Assembly: GCA_934249275.1 (NCBI GenBank)
Contig: CAKQKT010000061.1
Location: 1-12,021 of the forward strand
Direction of reading: 5' to 3'
Length of the DNA stretch: 12,021 bases
From: an uncultured Sutterella sp.
GTDB taxonomy: Bacteria > Pseudomonadota > Gammaproteobacteria > Burkholderiales > Burkholderiaceae_F
Part shown: piece by piece, positions 3,793 to 9,599 of the stretch
Numbering within the stretch: position 1 is the first letter of the stretch
How the letters are laid out: each line of letters opens with the position of its first letter
Program-made: the position numbers and the translations under genes
Notes under the pieces: model-generated
What the model saw: the letters and a program-made list of their open reading frames with translations, nothing else
What the model was told of the DNA's origin: nothing
Databases searched by the model: none

Positions 3793-4953
3793 TTACTTGG
3801 CGGCAGGAAGCTTGTTTTCAGCGCGGAGCATGTCAAGAACCTTGTCAACCGGGAGGGCCTTGTGGACCTTGCCGTTGTAGCCGGTAACGTCATGAGCCTT
3901 GAAGAGCGAGTTGATGATGGCTTCTTCCGTAGCTTCGATGGTGGCCATGAAGATCGGGGTCATGTCGTCGTTGGCGACGTTGACGTTGTTCAGCTTTTCA
4001 AGCTGCTTGGTATTGTGCGGAACGCGGTTTTCCTTGGCGGTCGAGAAGGCGATCGCGAAGTCGCCGGAACCGTTGGAGGCGATGCCGCCGGCCTTGGCGA
4101 GCCCCATGAAGGCGCGCTTGGCAACGCGTTCGAGGTTGCGGGAGTCGATCGGAGCGTCGGTGCCGACAACCATCATGATGGAGCCGTCAGCGCATTCGAT
4201 TTCCTTCTGCCACGGATAGCCGCCGAGCTTTTCGCCAACGGCGACGCCGTCAACGTTCAGGAAGCCGCCGAAGTTCGTCTGAACGAGAACGCCGACCGTG
4301 TAGCCGCCCATGGAAGCCGGGAGCTTGCGGGAGGACGTGCCGATGCCGCCCTTCCAGCCGAAGGCCTTCGTGCCGGAGCCGGCGCCGACGACGCCTTCTT
4401 CAACAGGACCGGACTTGGCGGACTTGATGGCCTTGAGAACGTCCTTGGCCGTCAGGAAGCGGGCGCGGATGTCGTTGATGCCGCCGTCGTTCGTTTCACC
4501 GACAACGCCGTTCACGGAGCGGCAGTCGCCGTTTTCCTTGAAGGAGAACGTGTAGTCGATAATGCCGTCGAGACCGGCAGCAACGTTAAGCGTGTTGACG
4601 AGGACGATCGGGGTTTCGATGTTGCCGAGTTCCTTCACCTGCGGGTAGCCGGTCATCTTGCCGAAACCGTTGGCGAGGAAAATGCCGGCCGGAACCTTTT
4701 CCTTGAAGAGGTTGCCGCCGTGCGGAAGAATGGCGGTCACGCCGGTGTGGGCGCCCTTCTTGTCGTCATGGACGTTGACCTGGCCGACGAGCACGCCCGG
4801 AACGTCGGTAATGGCGTTGTTCTGACCGGTATGCAGAACGCCGAACTGGATGCCGTATTCACGCGGGCGCAGCGAGTCTTCCTGAGCGGAAACTGCACCA
4901 ACCATCATTGCACCGGCCACGGAGGCGGCAACCAAAGTCTTCAAAAAGTTCAT
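3793..4953 (-). CDS. P1-family (DmpA/BapA-like) self-processing aminopeptidase, exported
   Basis: A 386-aa protein of peptidase family S58/P1 (L-aminopeptidase/D-esterase, beta-aminopeptidases). Seen: signal peptide with K5, a hydrophobic core to about residue 20 and a VSA-Q cleavage site after A23, so the mature enzyme is probably periplasmic. The family opening ITDVPGVLVGQVNVHDD (48-64) is present, as is the self-cleavage motif NGSGDFAIAFSTA (294-306). In DmpA the chain is cut between Gly and Ser of this motif and the new N-terminal Ser is the nucleophile, here G295/S296. VGAGSGTKAFGWKGGIGTSS (189-208) and PIDSRNLERVAKRA (268-281) are also typical. It removes N-terminal residues from peptides or amides; D-amino-acid or beta-amino-acid substrates are known in the family, and the substrate here is unknown. 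The start is supported by GAGGAG six bases upstream. It is a single-gene transcript with its own terminator. Confidence 0.92.
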   Translation of the reverse strand: MNFLKTLVAASVAGAMMVGAVSAQEDSLRPREYGIQFGVLHTGQNNAITDVPGVLVGQVNVHDDKKGAHTGVTAILPHGGNLFKEKVPAGIFLANGFGKMTGYPQVKELGNIETPIVLVNTLNVAAGLDGIIDYTFSFKENGDCRSVNGVVGETNDGGINDIRARFLTAKDVLKAIKSAKSGPVEEGVVGAGSGTKAFGWKGGIGTSSRKLPASMGGYTVGVLVQTNFGGFLNVDGVAVGEKLGGYPWQKEIECADGSIMMVVGTDAPIDSRNLERVAKRAFMGLAKAGGIASNGSGDFAIAFSTAKENRVPHNTKQLEKLNNVNVANDDMTPIFMATIEATEEAIINSLFKAHDVTGYNGKVHKALPVDKVLDMLRAENKLPAAK

Positions 4954-5666: not shown

Positions 5667-5749
5667 GCCCTCGTGCTTTCCGGTTTTGTGCAAGCCTGCC
5701 CGGACAAGCAGCCGGCAAGTTGCAAGACCTTATCAATATTGTTGAACCC

Positions 5750-6850
5750 ATGAAGTTTTACGGACGATCCAACGAAATCGCAGTCCTCAAGCGAGAGCTC
5801 GCTCTTTCCGAAGCTCGTGCGCGGTTTGCCATCGTTTCAGGCCGAAGGCGCATCGGCAAAACGACGTTGATTCGCGAAGCAGTGAAAGACTGCGGTCGTC
5901 CGGTGTTCTACTTTCAGTGCACCTCCAGCTGCACTGAAGAGATGCTTGCCCGGGTCTGGCTCGATGAAATCCGCAGGACCTTTGACCTTGCAACGGACGC
6001 CGGTCCTCGCAGGTTGACGGCGGCCAATATCGTCAGGCTTGTCATGAGGCTTTCGAAAGAAAAGCCGTGCGTGATGATTCTCGACGAATGCCAGGCACTG
6101 TCTTTTGCTGCGCCCGCGTTTTAGGCCGACCTGCAAGGCATTTGGGATCTCGAGAAGGATGACTCGCACATCCTTCTGATTTTTTCCGGACCTTCGTCCG
6201 AAGGCATGAAGGAAATCTTCGACAATGCCCGGGCGCCGCTCTTCGGACGGTGTGATTTGTCCTTGTCGCTACGTCCTTTTCAGCCGCATGATCTGCGAGA
6301 GATCTTTCTGGAAAACTATCCTCACGTGACACCCGCAGACCTTCTGACGCTCTACTCAACAACCGGCGGCGTGCCCGGCTATGTCTCGCATCTTGTCGAA
6401 TCGACGCCGTTGACGCGCGAAGGCATCCTCGGCCATGTCTTTTCCGAATCAGGCCGATTTCTACGTACGGACGCCGAGGACATTCTCAACCGATGCGGGA
6501 TCTCGGATTCGTGCGGTTGCATGAGCATTCTCAGAAGAATGGCCTTCAGCGCCAAACTGCAGAGCGAATTCGACGAGAGCTCGTGCATCCGGAACATGGC
6601 TGAGTGCTTGAACCGTCTCGAGAAGCGATGCAGCTTGATCAGACGAATGGCGTCGCTCATCACGGTCAGTCCTCGCGAAGCCGCATATGTGTTCACGGAT
6701 TTCTACTTCAGGTTTTGGTTCCGATTCATCGAGCCATTGCGGCTTCAGGCTGATGACGCGCGCCCTGCCTGGCCGGTATTGAAAGGCGACTGTCTCCGGA
6801 ACCTTGATGCATTCGAAGCGGGTAGAACCGTTGCGGCAGAAGGGCTATAG
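5750..6850 (+). pseudogene. ATPase_2/DUF234-type ATPase, broken by in-frame TAG and 3' truncated
   Basis: One reading frame from ATG 5750 to TAG 6848-6850 is interrupted by a single TAG at 6122-6124. Before the stop: MKFYGRSNEI opening, Walker A GRRRIGKT (31-38) and Walker B VMILDE (108-113). After the stop the same frame goes on with LQGIWD, LLIFSGPSS, an APLFGRCDLSLSLRPF stretch and YVFTDFYFRFWFRFIEP, all typical of the prokaryotic ATPase_2 family (PF01637) with its C-terminal DUF234-like part. The residue at the stop could well have been Gln (CAG to TAG by one change). The frame also ends about 40 residues after the FRFWFRF motif, whereas full members are roughly 450-480 aa, so the 3' end is missing too. 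As it stands only a 124-aa N-terminal fragment would be made. The function of intact members is poorly known (some are mobile-element or defence associated). An upstream in-frame TTG at 5720 is a less likely start. Confidence 0.8.
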
Positions 6851-7168: not shown

Positions 7169-7618
7169 TTATGACAAGCCTATTTCTATCGTAATAGTTT
7201 TGCCTTCGTCCGCTGACGTTATGAACGACTGCCCCGCGCTTGCGCCTTTTGACACTTGCGAAGCCAAAGCATAGCAACTTAGCCCAAGTTGTGGTAACGC
7301 GGTTATTTCGATGGGTACAGAAACCCCCGTATCAAGCCGCTTTGCGTAACCGCGTTTCCCTAGGTCTTCTTGAGGCCAAGGATAAGCTAGGATTGCTAGA
7401 CTCCAGTCGCGTATGGCATTCAAATAACCACAAAACCTGACAAACGTCTCGCCTTTATAGGCGCTTGGCATAACGTTTCCGAGCATCTGTGAAGACATAT
7501 AGTTGTTTCCCAGCCCGTACCCGTCGTCATCCCTTCCCGACCATCGAGCCACTGTTAGTTCAAATCGAGCAACTTCTACGGGGGCGCCCTGCGCCAAGAG
7601 GAGTTCCTTATTAAGCAT
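7169..7618 (-). CDS. MLNKE-type phage tail-end protein, copy 3 (149 aa)
   Basis: It starts MLNKELLLAQGAP and ends EGKTITIEIGLS. The first 8 or so residues match the two genes upstream; the middle (YGLGNNYMSSQMLGNV, WSLAILAYPW) and an RLDTG motif (92-96) also resemble copy 1. The start at 7618 is chosen because GAGGAG lies six bases upstream and because it restores the shared MLNKE opening; a GTG at 7639 would place that Shine-Dalgarno inside the gene. The protein is rich in beta-type residues with Gly and aromatic residues, as in small phage surface domains. Family and function are not recognised; last gene of the tail cluster, so a role in virion tip or host contact is inferred from position. 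Confidence 0.65.
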   Translation of the reverse strand: MLNKELLLAQGAPVEVARFELTVARWSGRDDDGYGLGNNYMSSQMLGNVMPSAYKGETFVRFCGYLNAIRDWSLAILAYPWPQEDLGKRGYAKRLDTGVSVPIEITALPQLGLSCYALASQVSKGASAGQSFITSADEGKTITIEIGLS

Positions 7619-7645
7619 CAGCAACTCCTCTGTTTTCACTTTTCA

Positions 7646-7990
7646 CTAGTCGTACTGATACTCCGCGTAGGCATCTTGAGAGGTATCTATCACTGCGTAA
7701 TAGATAGTCCGAGATCCGTACCGATCGTACTCCGTTTCCGTTTCTTCTATATTCTCCAGATTTACTAGTGCTGTCCGCATCTTCCCCTCCCCAGTGCTCC
7801 AGAGCTTCGCCACCTCTGCTACGAGAAGGATCACTGTATCGCCTTCGGTGGCATCTATTCGATGGTCCGTCCCGGAGAAGTCTGTGTATCCAGCGCCGCA
7901 CGTACCGCCATTGAACGATTGTTCGGTTATTGCCAGCGTGATCTTCGGAGGGTCGCCCGCCCCACCTAAAAGCATTTCCTTGTTCAGCAT
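7646..7990 (-). CDS. MLNKE-type phage tail-end protein, copy 2 (114 aa)
   Basis: It starts MLNKEMLLGGAGDPPKITLAITEQ, then a Gly/Thr-rich stretch, and ends in an acidic, Tyr-rich tail (AYAEYQYD). It has the strongest ribosome binding site of the group, AAAGGAGG (8000-8007), nine bases before the ATG, showing that it is translated on its own and not as part of the frame that runs over it from copy 1. Spacing to copy 3 is 27 bases. It is shorter than the other copies and lacks their RLDTG motif. Function unknown; the shared N-terminus suggests a common docking or assembly signal, with the rest of the protein diverged. Confidence 0.68.
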   Translation of the reverse strand: MLNKEMLLGGAGDPPKITLAITEQSFNGGTCGAGYTDFSGTDHRIDATEGDTVILLVAEVAKLWSTGEGKMRTALVNLENIEETETEYDRYGSRTIYYAVIDTSQDAYAEYQYD

Positions 7991-8037
7991 TTACCACGCC
8001 CTCCTTTCGAGAGCGGGTAAACACCGACTTGACCTTG

Positions 8038-8426
8038 CTACACGTAGGATGTAGGGGGGGGGGAAACCTTAATGGAATTTCCTTACCGACGTCATCATCT
8101 CCAAAAAACGGAGTAGCTCCTTTCTCCCCAGAAAAGACTTCTGTCTTTCCCGTATCCAGCCTAGTTACGCTGATCGACGAAGTCAGCTCTTCTGTAGCCG
8201 AACACACATTAGTGTATGCGTAAACGCCCTCGTCGTATGCACGGGTATAAAGATACAATAGTTGCGCCAGCCCCCAACACGGTCTACGGCTTATTGAGCC
8301 TATCTCAATATCCCCCATGTATCCATACGTGAACAGCGTCCCGTACTTCTCTCTATAGCCTACCGTAAGAACGACGTGCGGCTCGCCACCCGCCGCCACT
8401 GCTAGCATCGTCTCCTTATTCAGCAT
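8038..8426 (-). CDS. MLNKE-type phage tail-end protein, copy 1, with frame-deciding C10 tract
   Basis: It starts MLNKETMLAVAAGGEPHVVLTVGY at 8426, with AAGGGGG upstream, 10 bases after the chaperone stop. It shares with copy 3 the N-terminus, a GYMGDIEIGS-like middle and an RLDTG motif. Near the end, after GKEIPLRF, the coding strand has ten C (8054-8063). As written (C10) the frame misses nearby stops and runs out of frame over copy 2 to 7611, giving a 271-aa product whose last half is not credible. With 8 or 11 C the protein ends PTSYV at TAG 8038-8040, closest to the end of copy 3 (GKTITIEIGLS). With 9 C it ends at TAA 7991-7993, abutting the ATG of copy 2. The coordinates given use the first reading (one C more, 129 aa). 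The tract is either a real length switch or a sequencing/assembly slip. Confidence 0.6.
8054..8063. repeat. G10/C10 homopolymer in a tail-end gene
   Basis: Ten G on the plus strand (C on the coding strand) inside the 3' part of the copy 1 MLNKE gene. I noticed no comparable run elsewhere in the window. Runs of this length are prone to slipped-strand errors in replication and to length errors in sequencing. Confidence 0.9.
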
Positions 8427-8436
8427 CTCAACCCCC

Positions 8437-8811
8437 TTACTTGGAAATGCAGGACGGGAATTCAGGCCATTCAATCTGGCGCGGGAAGCCCGTCTGCTCG
8501 GGAACATCTCGGAGTGCCTGACGATACGCCTTGACCTCAGCCAGTGCCTCAGCCGTCATGCCGGGGTAGTCGGAGAGAAGGTAAACGTCCGTGGCGCGAA
8601 GACGAGCATCGCGGTCTCGGCGCACGGTCGCAGCGACCTCCTCGTCCGTGTAGTCGCGTTCGGCATACGCCACGCCGTGCTTTTCCCAGAACTCAGCCTT
8701 GCCCTCCTCGGGAGCCGCACCGAAGGACACGCGGTCCTTCTTGAAAATCTCTTGGCGCACCTGCCATTCAGACTGGTAGGTGACGCCGTTAAAAGTCCAA
8801 GTCTTAACCAT
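8437..8811 (-). CDS. Phage tail assembly chaperone-like protein
   Basis: A 124-aa protein. The C-terminal third carries the pattern of the phage tail assembly chaperone family (Phage_tail_APC-like): RDRDARLRATDVYLLSDYPG, a LAEVKAYRQALRDVPEQTGF segment, then an IEWPEFP ending. The N-terminal part opens MVKTWTFNGVTYQSEWQVRQ, short strands typical of tail-fibre-linked small proteins. Members sit next to tail fibre genes and are thought to help fibres fold or assemble without necessarily being in the virion. The ATG at 8811 is two bases past the stop of the collagen-like gene, and its Shine-Dalgarno (GGGAG) lies within that gene's last codons, so the two are likely translationally coupled. Confidence 0.75.
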   Translation of the reverse strand: MVKTWTFNGVTYQSEWQVRQEIFKKDRVSFGAAPEEGKAEFWEKHGVAYAERDYTDEEVAATVRRDRDARLRATDVYLLSDYPGMTAEALAEVKAYRQALRDVPEQTGFPRQIEWPEFPSCISK

Positions 8812-8813
8812 TC

Positions 8814-9599
8814 TCAGCTCCCAAACTTAGTGAACGTAGCGACGCCGAACGTGCCGTACCATGCGCACGTGACAAGCCCCTTGGCAAGCGTCGGAGCCAA
8901 GCCGCTCCACGACCATGCGCTGCCCAGATTAACCGTGGCGGATCCCGCCAGTGCGACAACCGTAATCCACGATGCGCTTGCAGAGCCGTCGTTGACCGTG
9001 AGCGTTCCACCGTCGGCAAGGCTCATGGAGCGGGCGGACGTATCGGAGACCGTGGTCGCGGTGACAAGCGTTTCGTAAGTCGTGATCGAACCCGTACTGC
9101 CAGCCTTCGGGATGGCGTTCTTAGCGCCGTCTGCACCAGCGGGGCCTTGCGGACCAGTATCGCCCTTGTCGCCCTTAGCACCAGCCGCGCCCGTCGGACC
9201 CTGCGGGCCAGTAGCCCCCGTCTCGCCCTTCATGCCGCTGAAGGCAAGGGTGAAGGTGCGGGCAGTCGACGTGCCGCCAGTGGTGACTTTCACGGACGGA
9301 GTGCCCGTCGTCTTGTCGACCGTAGCGGTGATGCTCTCGATGGTAGCGGAGGTGCCAGCAGGGCCCTGTGCGCCGGTAGCACCCTTGGCGCCAGCCGCCC
9401 CCGTTTCACCCTTGTCGCCCTTGTCGCCCTTCGGGATGTTGAACGTGTATTTGAGTTTGCCGTCGGTCTGCTTCGTGACGGACACGGATGCGGCAGAGCC
9501 TGCGGCAATCGTGTTGACCGCCGCACCGGGCGCTTCCAGATTCAAAAGCCGCGTGGCAATGTCCTCGCCAAGCTCGGCCATGTTAGGCATTTGTGCCAT
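8814..9599 (-). CDS. Collagen-like phage tail fibre protein
   Basis: A 261-aa protein. Seen: N-terminal part (1-57) with VTKQTDGKLKYTFNIPKGDK, a phage fibre lead-in to collagen segments; first Gly-X-Y block at 58-81 (8 triplets, rich in Lys-Gly-Asp and Ala); a 40-residue beta-type spacer with TTGTPSVKVTTGGTSTARTF; second Gly-X-Y block at 122-160 (13 triplets); and a C-terminal globular part (about 165-261) with WITVVALAGSATVNLGSAWSW, probably the trimerisation and/or receptor-binding tip. Gly-X-Y blocks in phage fibres form trimeric rods. The start overlaps the end of the 102-aa gene by 17 bases, with AAGGAG inside that gene. Repeats in the DNA here can recombine and change shaft length. Confidence 0.85.
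   Translation of the reverse strand: MAQMPNMAELGEDIATRLLNLEAPGAAVNTIAAGSAASVSVTKQTDGKLKYTFNIPKGDKGDKGETGAAGAKGATGAQGPAGTSATIESITATVDKTTGTPSVKVTTGGTSTARTFTLAFSGMKGETGATGPQGPTGAAGAKGDKGDTGPQGPAGADGAKNAIPKAGSTGSITTYETLVTATTVSDTSARSMSLADGGTLTVNDGSASASWITVVALAGSATVNLGSAWSWSGLAPTLAKGLVTCAWYGTFGVATFTKFGS

Follow-up and report, generated by a model that had tools for sequence, protein, structure and literature searches.

The question raised by this locus is what a run of ten cytosines accomplishes close to where a phage tail gene ends. The DNA under study, hereafter referred to as the window, is a 12,021-base stretch from an uncultured Sutterella sp. (contig CAKQKT010000061.1), in which host genes adjoin a minus-strand prophage at its tail end. 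The final prophage genes encode, in order, a tail fibre, a chaperone, and, in tandem, three small proteins that each start with MLNKE, the latter being designated genes A, B, and C. The homopolymer is located in gene A, and the original prediction had viewed it as a possible phase switch that chooses among three C-termini. The explanation favoured here, and one considered somewhat likely, is that the tract, placed where gene A ends in an array of tandem tail-end genes, is a length-variable, phase-variable translation router.

Three frame ends behind the tract

The elements that define the layout are as follows.

8054 to 8063, minus strand: C10 tract, close to the 3' end of gene A (MLNKE copy 1), from the sequence
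8064 to 8426, minus strand: gene A (MLNKE copy 1), the portion upstream of the tract, of which 120 residues (8067-8426) served as query
7611 to 8426, minus strand: gene A as-written reading, crossing gene B out of frame to TAA 7611-7613, from frame analysis
8038 to 8040, minus strand: TAG, the early stop of one alternative frame, from frame analysis
7999 to 8007, minus strand: AAAGGAGGG, ribosome-site-like, upstream of gene B, from the sequence
7991 to 7993, minus strand: TAA, the stop of the remaining frame, directly 5' of the gene B ATG, from frame analysis
7646 to 7990, minus strand: gene B (MLNKE copy 2), 114 amino acids, ATG at 7990, +2 frame stop-free, from frame analysis
7625 to 7631, minus strand: AGAGGAG, ribosome-site-like, upstream of gene C, from the sequence
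7169 to 7618, minus strand: gene C (MLNKE copy 3), 149 amino acids, ATG at 7618, from frame analysis

By direct sequence count the homopolymer is C10 on the minus, coding strand and G10 on the plus strand, and it is the only G/C run of six or more bases across the window. The three frames behind it end at three different places. In one, a stop is found 4 codons past the tract (TAG 8038-8040). In the second, the stop lies 20 codons past the tract (TAA 7991-7993) and touches the ATG of gene B. The frame as written continues for 146 codons past the tract, and all of B is crossed out of frame. Given that gene A has its own ATG at 8426, the as-written product contains 271 amino acids rather than the 298 of the open reading frame. 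The position of the tract, the two alternative stops, the out-of-frame passage across copy 2, and the ribosome site in front of that copy had all been correctly described in the original prediction. What had been missed, besides the ATG of gene A itself, is that the stop of the as-written frame (TAA 7611-7613) overlaps the start of gene C (start codon ATG at 7618). The other two frames of gene C contain 11 and 6 stops. Judged by its frames, the window as assembled is in the crossing, or skip-B, state. A homopolymer of eight or more bases that lies in or beside a coding region, and whose length alters the reading frame, characterizes a contingency locus, and the C10 tract is of this type.

Because the supposed overrun ends at the start of copy 3, and seems to be kept open by selection as described below, the three frame ends would represent a choice of the downstream gene reached by ribosomes rather than a choice of C-termini. 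The idea of a phase switch, on the other hand, has gained from the three-way ends, from relatives that differ in frame and in length, and from the many tracts in the hosts.

In the mechanism envisaged, slipped-strand changes in tract length would determine the reading frame of ribosomes as they exit gene A. In the first frame they would stop well short of B. In the second they would stop at the start of B, beside its strong ribosome site, and could restart on B. In the third they would read through B in the wrong frame until a stop at the start of C. In this crossing state the B start would be run over and B skipped or depressed, C would still be supplied with ribosomes, and the message would stay covered. 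The net effect would be to make B phase-variable, either up or down, without polarity on later genes. Translation would follow the frame of the tract in this manner, with a coupling of the strength assumed, and A, B, and C are presumed to be exposed parts of the tail end on the virion.

Recurrence of the layout in other arrays

The genes preceding the array include the landmark, a chaperone, by which related arrays were located.

8437 to 8811, minus strand: tail-fibre assembly chaperone (PF16778), from a domain match
8814 to 9599, minus strand: collagen-like tail fibre protein, annotated from sequence

The chaperone family PF16778 was searched for in 67 genomes, 6 of which carry it. Seven chaperone loci were taken, and three of these (L036, L037, and L038), retrieved via the chaperone family with the tract sequence unused in the search, contain tract arrays. 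The other four (L032-L035) have no run of seven or more. L036, from genome G061, consists of eight array genes with four G9 tracts, whereas L037, from G064, contains six array genes and three G9 tracts. The third array, L038, belongs to a canine Sutterella (G002) and has five array genes with one G8 and one G6 junction. Two additional loci, L060 and L061, show 100% identity over 9.3 and 10.5 kb to L036 and L037, respectively, and were rejected as independent isolates.

A profile comparison of the MLNKE family with the L036/L037/L038 array family revealed no detectable similarity (E 0.53 over 6 columns), and seven proteins of the latter arrays have no Pfam or PHROGs match better than E 0.05. 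The three-way layout is common to both families. It is observed at all seven junctions with eight or more G/C, namely that of the window, three in L036, two in L037, and one in L038. The early frame stops 0-4 codons past the tract, the second frame stops from -1 to +13 of the B start, and the crossing frame extends for 136-151 codons through B to a stop at +3 to +7 of the C start. At each of the seven, a stop touches or overlaps the next start and is accompanied by a ribosome site, as expected for translational coupling. The G6 junction of L038 shows the same layout, such that the crossing frame stops at the C start in 8/8 junctions. The gene in the B position at this G6 junction (L038:5998-6378) has 2 stops in its own frame and 0 in the crossing frame.

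Five of the eight junctions cross as written (the window, two in L036, one in L037, and one in L038), two stop at B (one in L037 and one in L038), and one, in L036, stops immediately. The tract is thus found at the same place in relatives but in different states, as in contingency loci. Note that L036 and L037 each contain an additional G9, at L036:5244-5252 and L037:7016-7024, no more than 25 codons into the first gene of the array. As written these are closed, with 105-111 open codons in another frame, and by their frames they represent the usual on/off switch layout. Such switches raise the issue of whether the tract of gene A is simply a device for phase variation of that gene, adding or removing a C-terminal tail, with any effects on B and C incidental. 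Homopolymer switches are common in these hosts, and the two tracts near a gene start are like ordinary on/off switches. This explanation leaves unaccounted for, however, a gene B that is stop-free, unlike A and most control genes, and a stop at the C start in every one of the eight junctions, and it is regarded as quite unlikely.

The constancy of the G9 tracts, all seven in L036 and L037 being nine bases, would fit a different scheme in which polymerase or ribosome slips at a tract of fixed length, and one genome gives all three readings without a change in DNA. Frameshifting is known in phage tail genes, as in the +1 shift on a proline codon described for Listeria phage PSA (PMC5009743). The state at G9 varies between junctions, however, the tract length itself varies (between the proteins P0012 and P0013 discussed below, and as C8, G8, G9, and C10 between arrays), and the crossing-frame product is not conserved. 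Programmed slippage is accordingly deemed improbable.

Matches to the array-family profile were obtained in 4 of the 67 genomes, these being the sources of L036, L037, and L038 and, once, G031. The region of the weak relative in G031 shows no run of seven or more within 14 kb. Four weak matches at the order level lie in regions without runs of eight or more, and a fifth, G329, has none in its 3.3 kb locus, the only stretch covered. In G015, three tandem genes that start with MLNN lie behind tail genes, with a C8 at the end of the first, and the end of this gene overlaps the next start.

Runs of eight or more G/C number 11 in the 453,009 retrieved bases, with duplicates left out, and 10 of these 11 lie inside tail-end arrays of this kind. 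Their placement in such arrays exceeds chance. A background of 0 runs of seven or more G/C in 133,774 bases (L001-L007) was discarded as misleading, and whole-genome counts of runs of eight or more were used instead: 3 in G002, 9 in G015, 14 in G061, 16 in G001, and at least 21 in G064. Long G/C runs are not rare in these hosts. Of the 14 runs in the 2.8 Mb genome of G061, however, 4 fall within a single array of 3.2 kb. None of the 12 distinct tracts outside arrays, among the 30 loci listed, displays the crossing layout. Most runs of at least eight G in G001, G015, G061, and G064 lie outside arrays, and the longest reach up to G20 in S. wadsworthensis 2_1_59BFAA.

With respect to the surroundings of the array in the window, the host gene at 3793-4953, which is presumed to encode a P1-type peptidase, is 88% identical in DNA and 94% identical in protein to that of Sutterella wadsworthensis 2_1_59BFAA, and the prophage host is, judging from sequence, S. 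wadsworthensis-like. A prophage of the same strain (L024) matches the window at 78% in DNA over 8671-9094, a segment covering the end of the tail fibre and the chaperone, and has one MLNTK gene, without a tract, where the window carries the array. An ATPase-like gene with an in-frame TAG at 6122-6124 occupies 5720-6850 at the prophage edge, and the prophage seems to end just past it.

The crossing frame of gene B and its protein relatives

In all seven B genes, the crossing frame is free of stops. When the genes were recoded with the codon usage of each phage, the chance of a stop-free B was 0.00075 for the window, 0.00625, 0.011, and 0.0025 for L036, 0.00125 and 0.00075 for L037, and 0.038 for L038. 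Codon shuffling within each gene gave corresponding values of 0.003 for the window, 0.014, 0.127, and 0.020 for L036, 0.012 and 0.010 for L037, and 0.027 for L038. Not one of the 26 listed control genes is stop-free, a 27th having been dropped because it was not located. The 26 include the last genes of three of these arrays, which contain 6 to 12 stops per frame. The gene A parts, when treated as controls, contain 4 to 16 stops per frame (0/8 stop-free). In an automatic set of genes with 90-180 codons, for which the gene caller retained four of the seven B genes, one of 68 is stop-free, and this gene is presumably one of a nested spanin pair. In the window it is the +2 frame that stays open, in the other arrays the +1 frame, and each time this is the frame left unclosed by the start sequence of B itself.

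Long open frames in 7/7 genes might also be expected of dual coding, in which the crossing frame would supply gene A with a useful extension that overlaps B. A similar crossing-frame sequence is indeed present among the proteins P0003-P0014 described below, but this likeness is expected if gene B is simply the same. Moreover, the crossing-frame peptide is not conserved, with only 1 of 15 pairs among six B genes above the recoding null at 0.05. The remaining 14 pairs lie at that null, and the conserved second frame typical of programmed tail frameshifting was not found. A dual-coding protein in the crossing frame was rejected on these grounds, and the explanation as a whole is viewed as highly improbable. 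Since the peptide is not conserved, it seems to be the openness of the frame, rather than a product, that is kept by selection.

A search with the 120 residues of gene A that precede the tract identified, among about 5.8 billion proteins, one close relative (P0001, 88%), which was one of six candidates. P0001 is derived from a 965-base contig and reads the frame that ends at the B start, and its tract is interrupted by a threonine codon. The 271-residue as-written reading, in turn, has 18 relatives (P0003-P0020). Their first domains are of several kinds, yet in every one of the 18 the junction is read in the crossing frame (FTRSRKEGVV). Seventeen of them extend for 62-129 residues past the junction, and P0020 extends for only 3. 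The sequence E-V-x-Y-A-A ends 14 of the 18, and by back-translation this ending would fit a ribosome site together with the start of another gene. P0012 and P0013, which are nearly identical, have tracts that differ in length by a single proline codon, an indication that tract length changes in nature.

These relatives also bear on whether the crossing state is an artifact of sequencing or assembly, the true tract having another length. A C10 run is difficult for any sequencer, and P0001, the sole close relative, reads the frame that stops at B. Against this, 17 of the 18 relatives of the as-written reading, on separate contigs, likewise read past the B start, and the crossing frame of B is open in the window itself. 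In addition, an error would alter the state of one copy and not the layout. An artifact is therefore considered unlikely.

The cassettes of P0003-P0020 look shuffled and joined at a nearly constant junction. P0014 and P0017 have the first cassette in common and differ in the second, whereas P0018 and P0019 differ in their first cassettes and are similar in the second. The search with gene C returned only its own cluster, P0002, on three contigs. No relatives of gene A were found in 12 Sutterella genomes or in IMG/VR, nor, with two peptide patterns, in the GTDB contigs. IMG/VR likewise gave no match for gene B, the chaperone, the junction pattern, P0020, or P0004. The DNA of the region has no match among phages or plasmids, and neither P0011 nor one L036 array protein has a match among phages. 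The predicted fold of gene A (mean predicted local distance difference test score of 70) gave no usable structural match, the best E value being 1.4. For an L036 array gene (score of 69), comparison with the PDB gave weak beta-sandwich matches, none at E of 0.001 or less, including carbohydrate-binding modules of family 35 at E 0.007-0.013, and comparison with viral models gave weak matches, seven of them at E of 0.001 or less with a template modelling score of at most 0.44. None of these fold matches was used as evidence.

Weight of the evidence and known systems

Several observations speak against a translation router. The seven L036/L037 tracts are all exactly nine long, which is unexpected under free slippage, and the length difference between P0012 and P0013 is a whole codon that leaves the frame unchanged. 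The C8 junction in G015 is without a crossing frame, its second gene containing 7 and 20 stops. The L036 B gene at 6819 is unremarkable under within-gene shuffling (0.127), and the seven B genes are not independent, six being from one family, for which reason no combined probability is quoted. The frame count among P0003-P0020 is biased in that the query was itself in the crossing frame, and since that frame also supplied the query words, this search gives no measure of the share of frames. The B genes carry good ribosome sites of their own, and B may therefore be translated in any state. Finally, switching of the tracts within a population is a presumption, the comparisons having been made between assembled sequences with each array represented in one state.

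With these points taken into account, the translation router is still favoured. A bolder version, to which somewhat less than even odds are assigned, holds that in phages of gut Sutterellaceae each homopolymer is a three-position router, that B is stop-free solely so that ribosomes can drive through it, and that two families with no similarity detected between them arrived at this solution. If a router is indeed in operation, a few tracts would yield a large number of tail-end combinations, with no specialized enzyme needed and downstream genes not cut off. Phages would then apply the slippage-based bet-hedging of bacterial surface genes to the tail-end genes that would meet those surfaces. 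The router would also explain long out-of-frame open frames that annotation would label as errors or fusions, and it supplies a straightforward criterion (tract, early stop, stop at B, stop at C) for finding such arrays in other phages.

Among the titles and abstracts listed in searches of 5.39 million open papers, with preprints and most subscription journals outside the scope, none deals with tail-gene arrays of phages or prophages that are switched by homopolymers, and no paper joins Sutterella, phase variation, and prophage. Parasutterella appeared together with phase variation only in a review on pain. If true, a choice of frame that targets either of two downstream genes would be a logic undescribed in those titles and abstracts.

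Diversity-generating retroelements employ a reverse transcriptase, and invertible tail-fibre segments employ an invertase. Like these systems, the array would diversify tail-end proteins within a phage population, but a homopolymer switch would need neither enzyme. Phase variation through poly-G/C runs is well established for the surface genes of bacteria. In simple-repeat contingency loci, poly-G or poly-C tracts underlie phase variation, for example in the Campylobacter surface genes covered in PMC10877375. The array resembles them in having a single-base run in a coding region, a run length that sets the frame, run-rich hosts, and states that differ between relatives. It differs in the position of the run, close to where gene A of a phage array ends, and in having three frames that lead to three places relative to two downstream genes rather than to one gene being on or off.

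A slippery run near the end of a tail gene with a second frame behind it is likewise characteristic of programmed frameshifting, as in lambda G/GT and Listeria phage PSA (PMC5009743). There the second part is needed and conserved, whereas in the array the frame is open and not conserved, and the tract length varies. Lastly, the array is similar to translational coupling, as presented in PMC3711429, in that one reading ends on a stop overlapping the start of the following gene, next to a ribosome site. That paper places phase variation and coupling in separate classes. In the array, by contrast, the stop that is used, and hence the gene that is coupled, would depend on the length of the tract.
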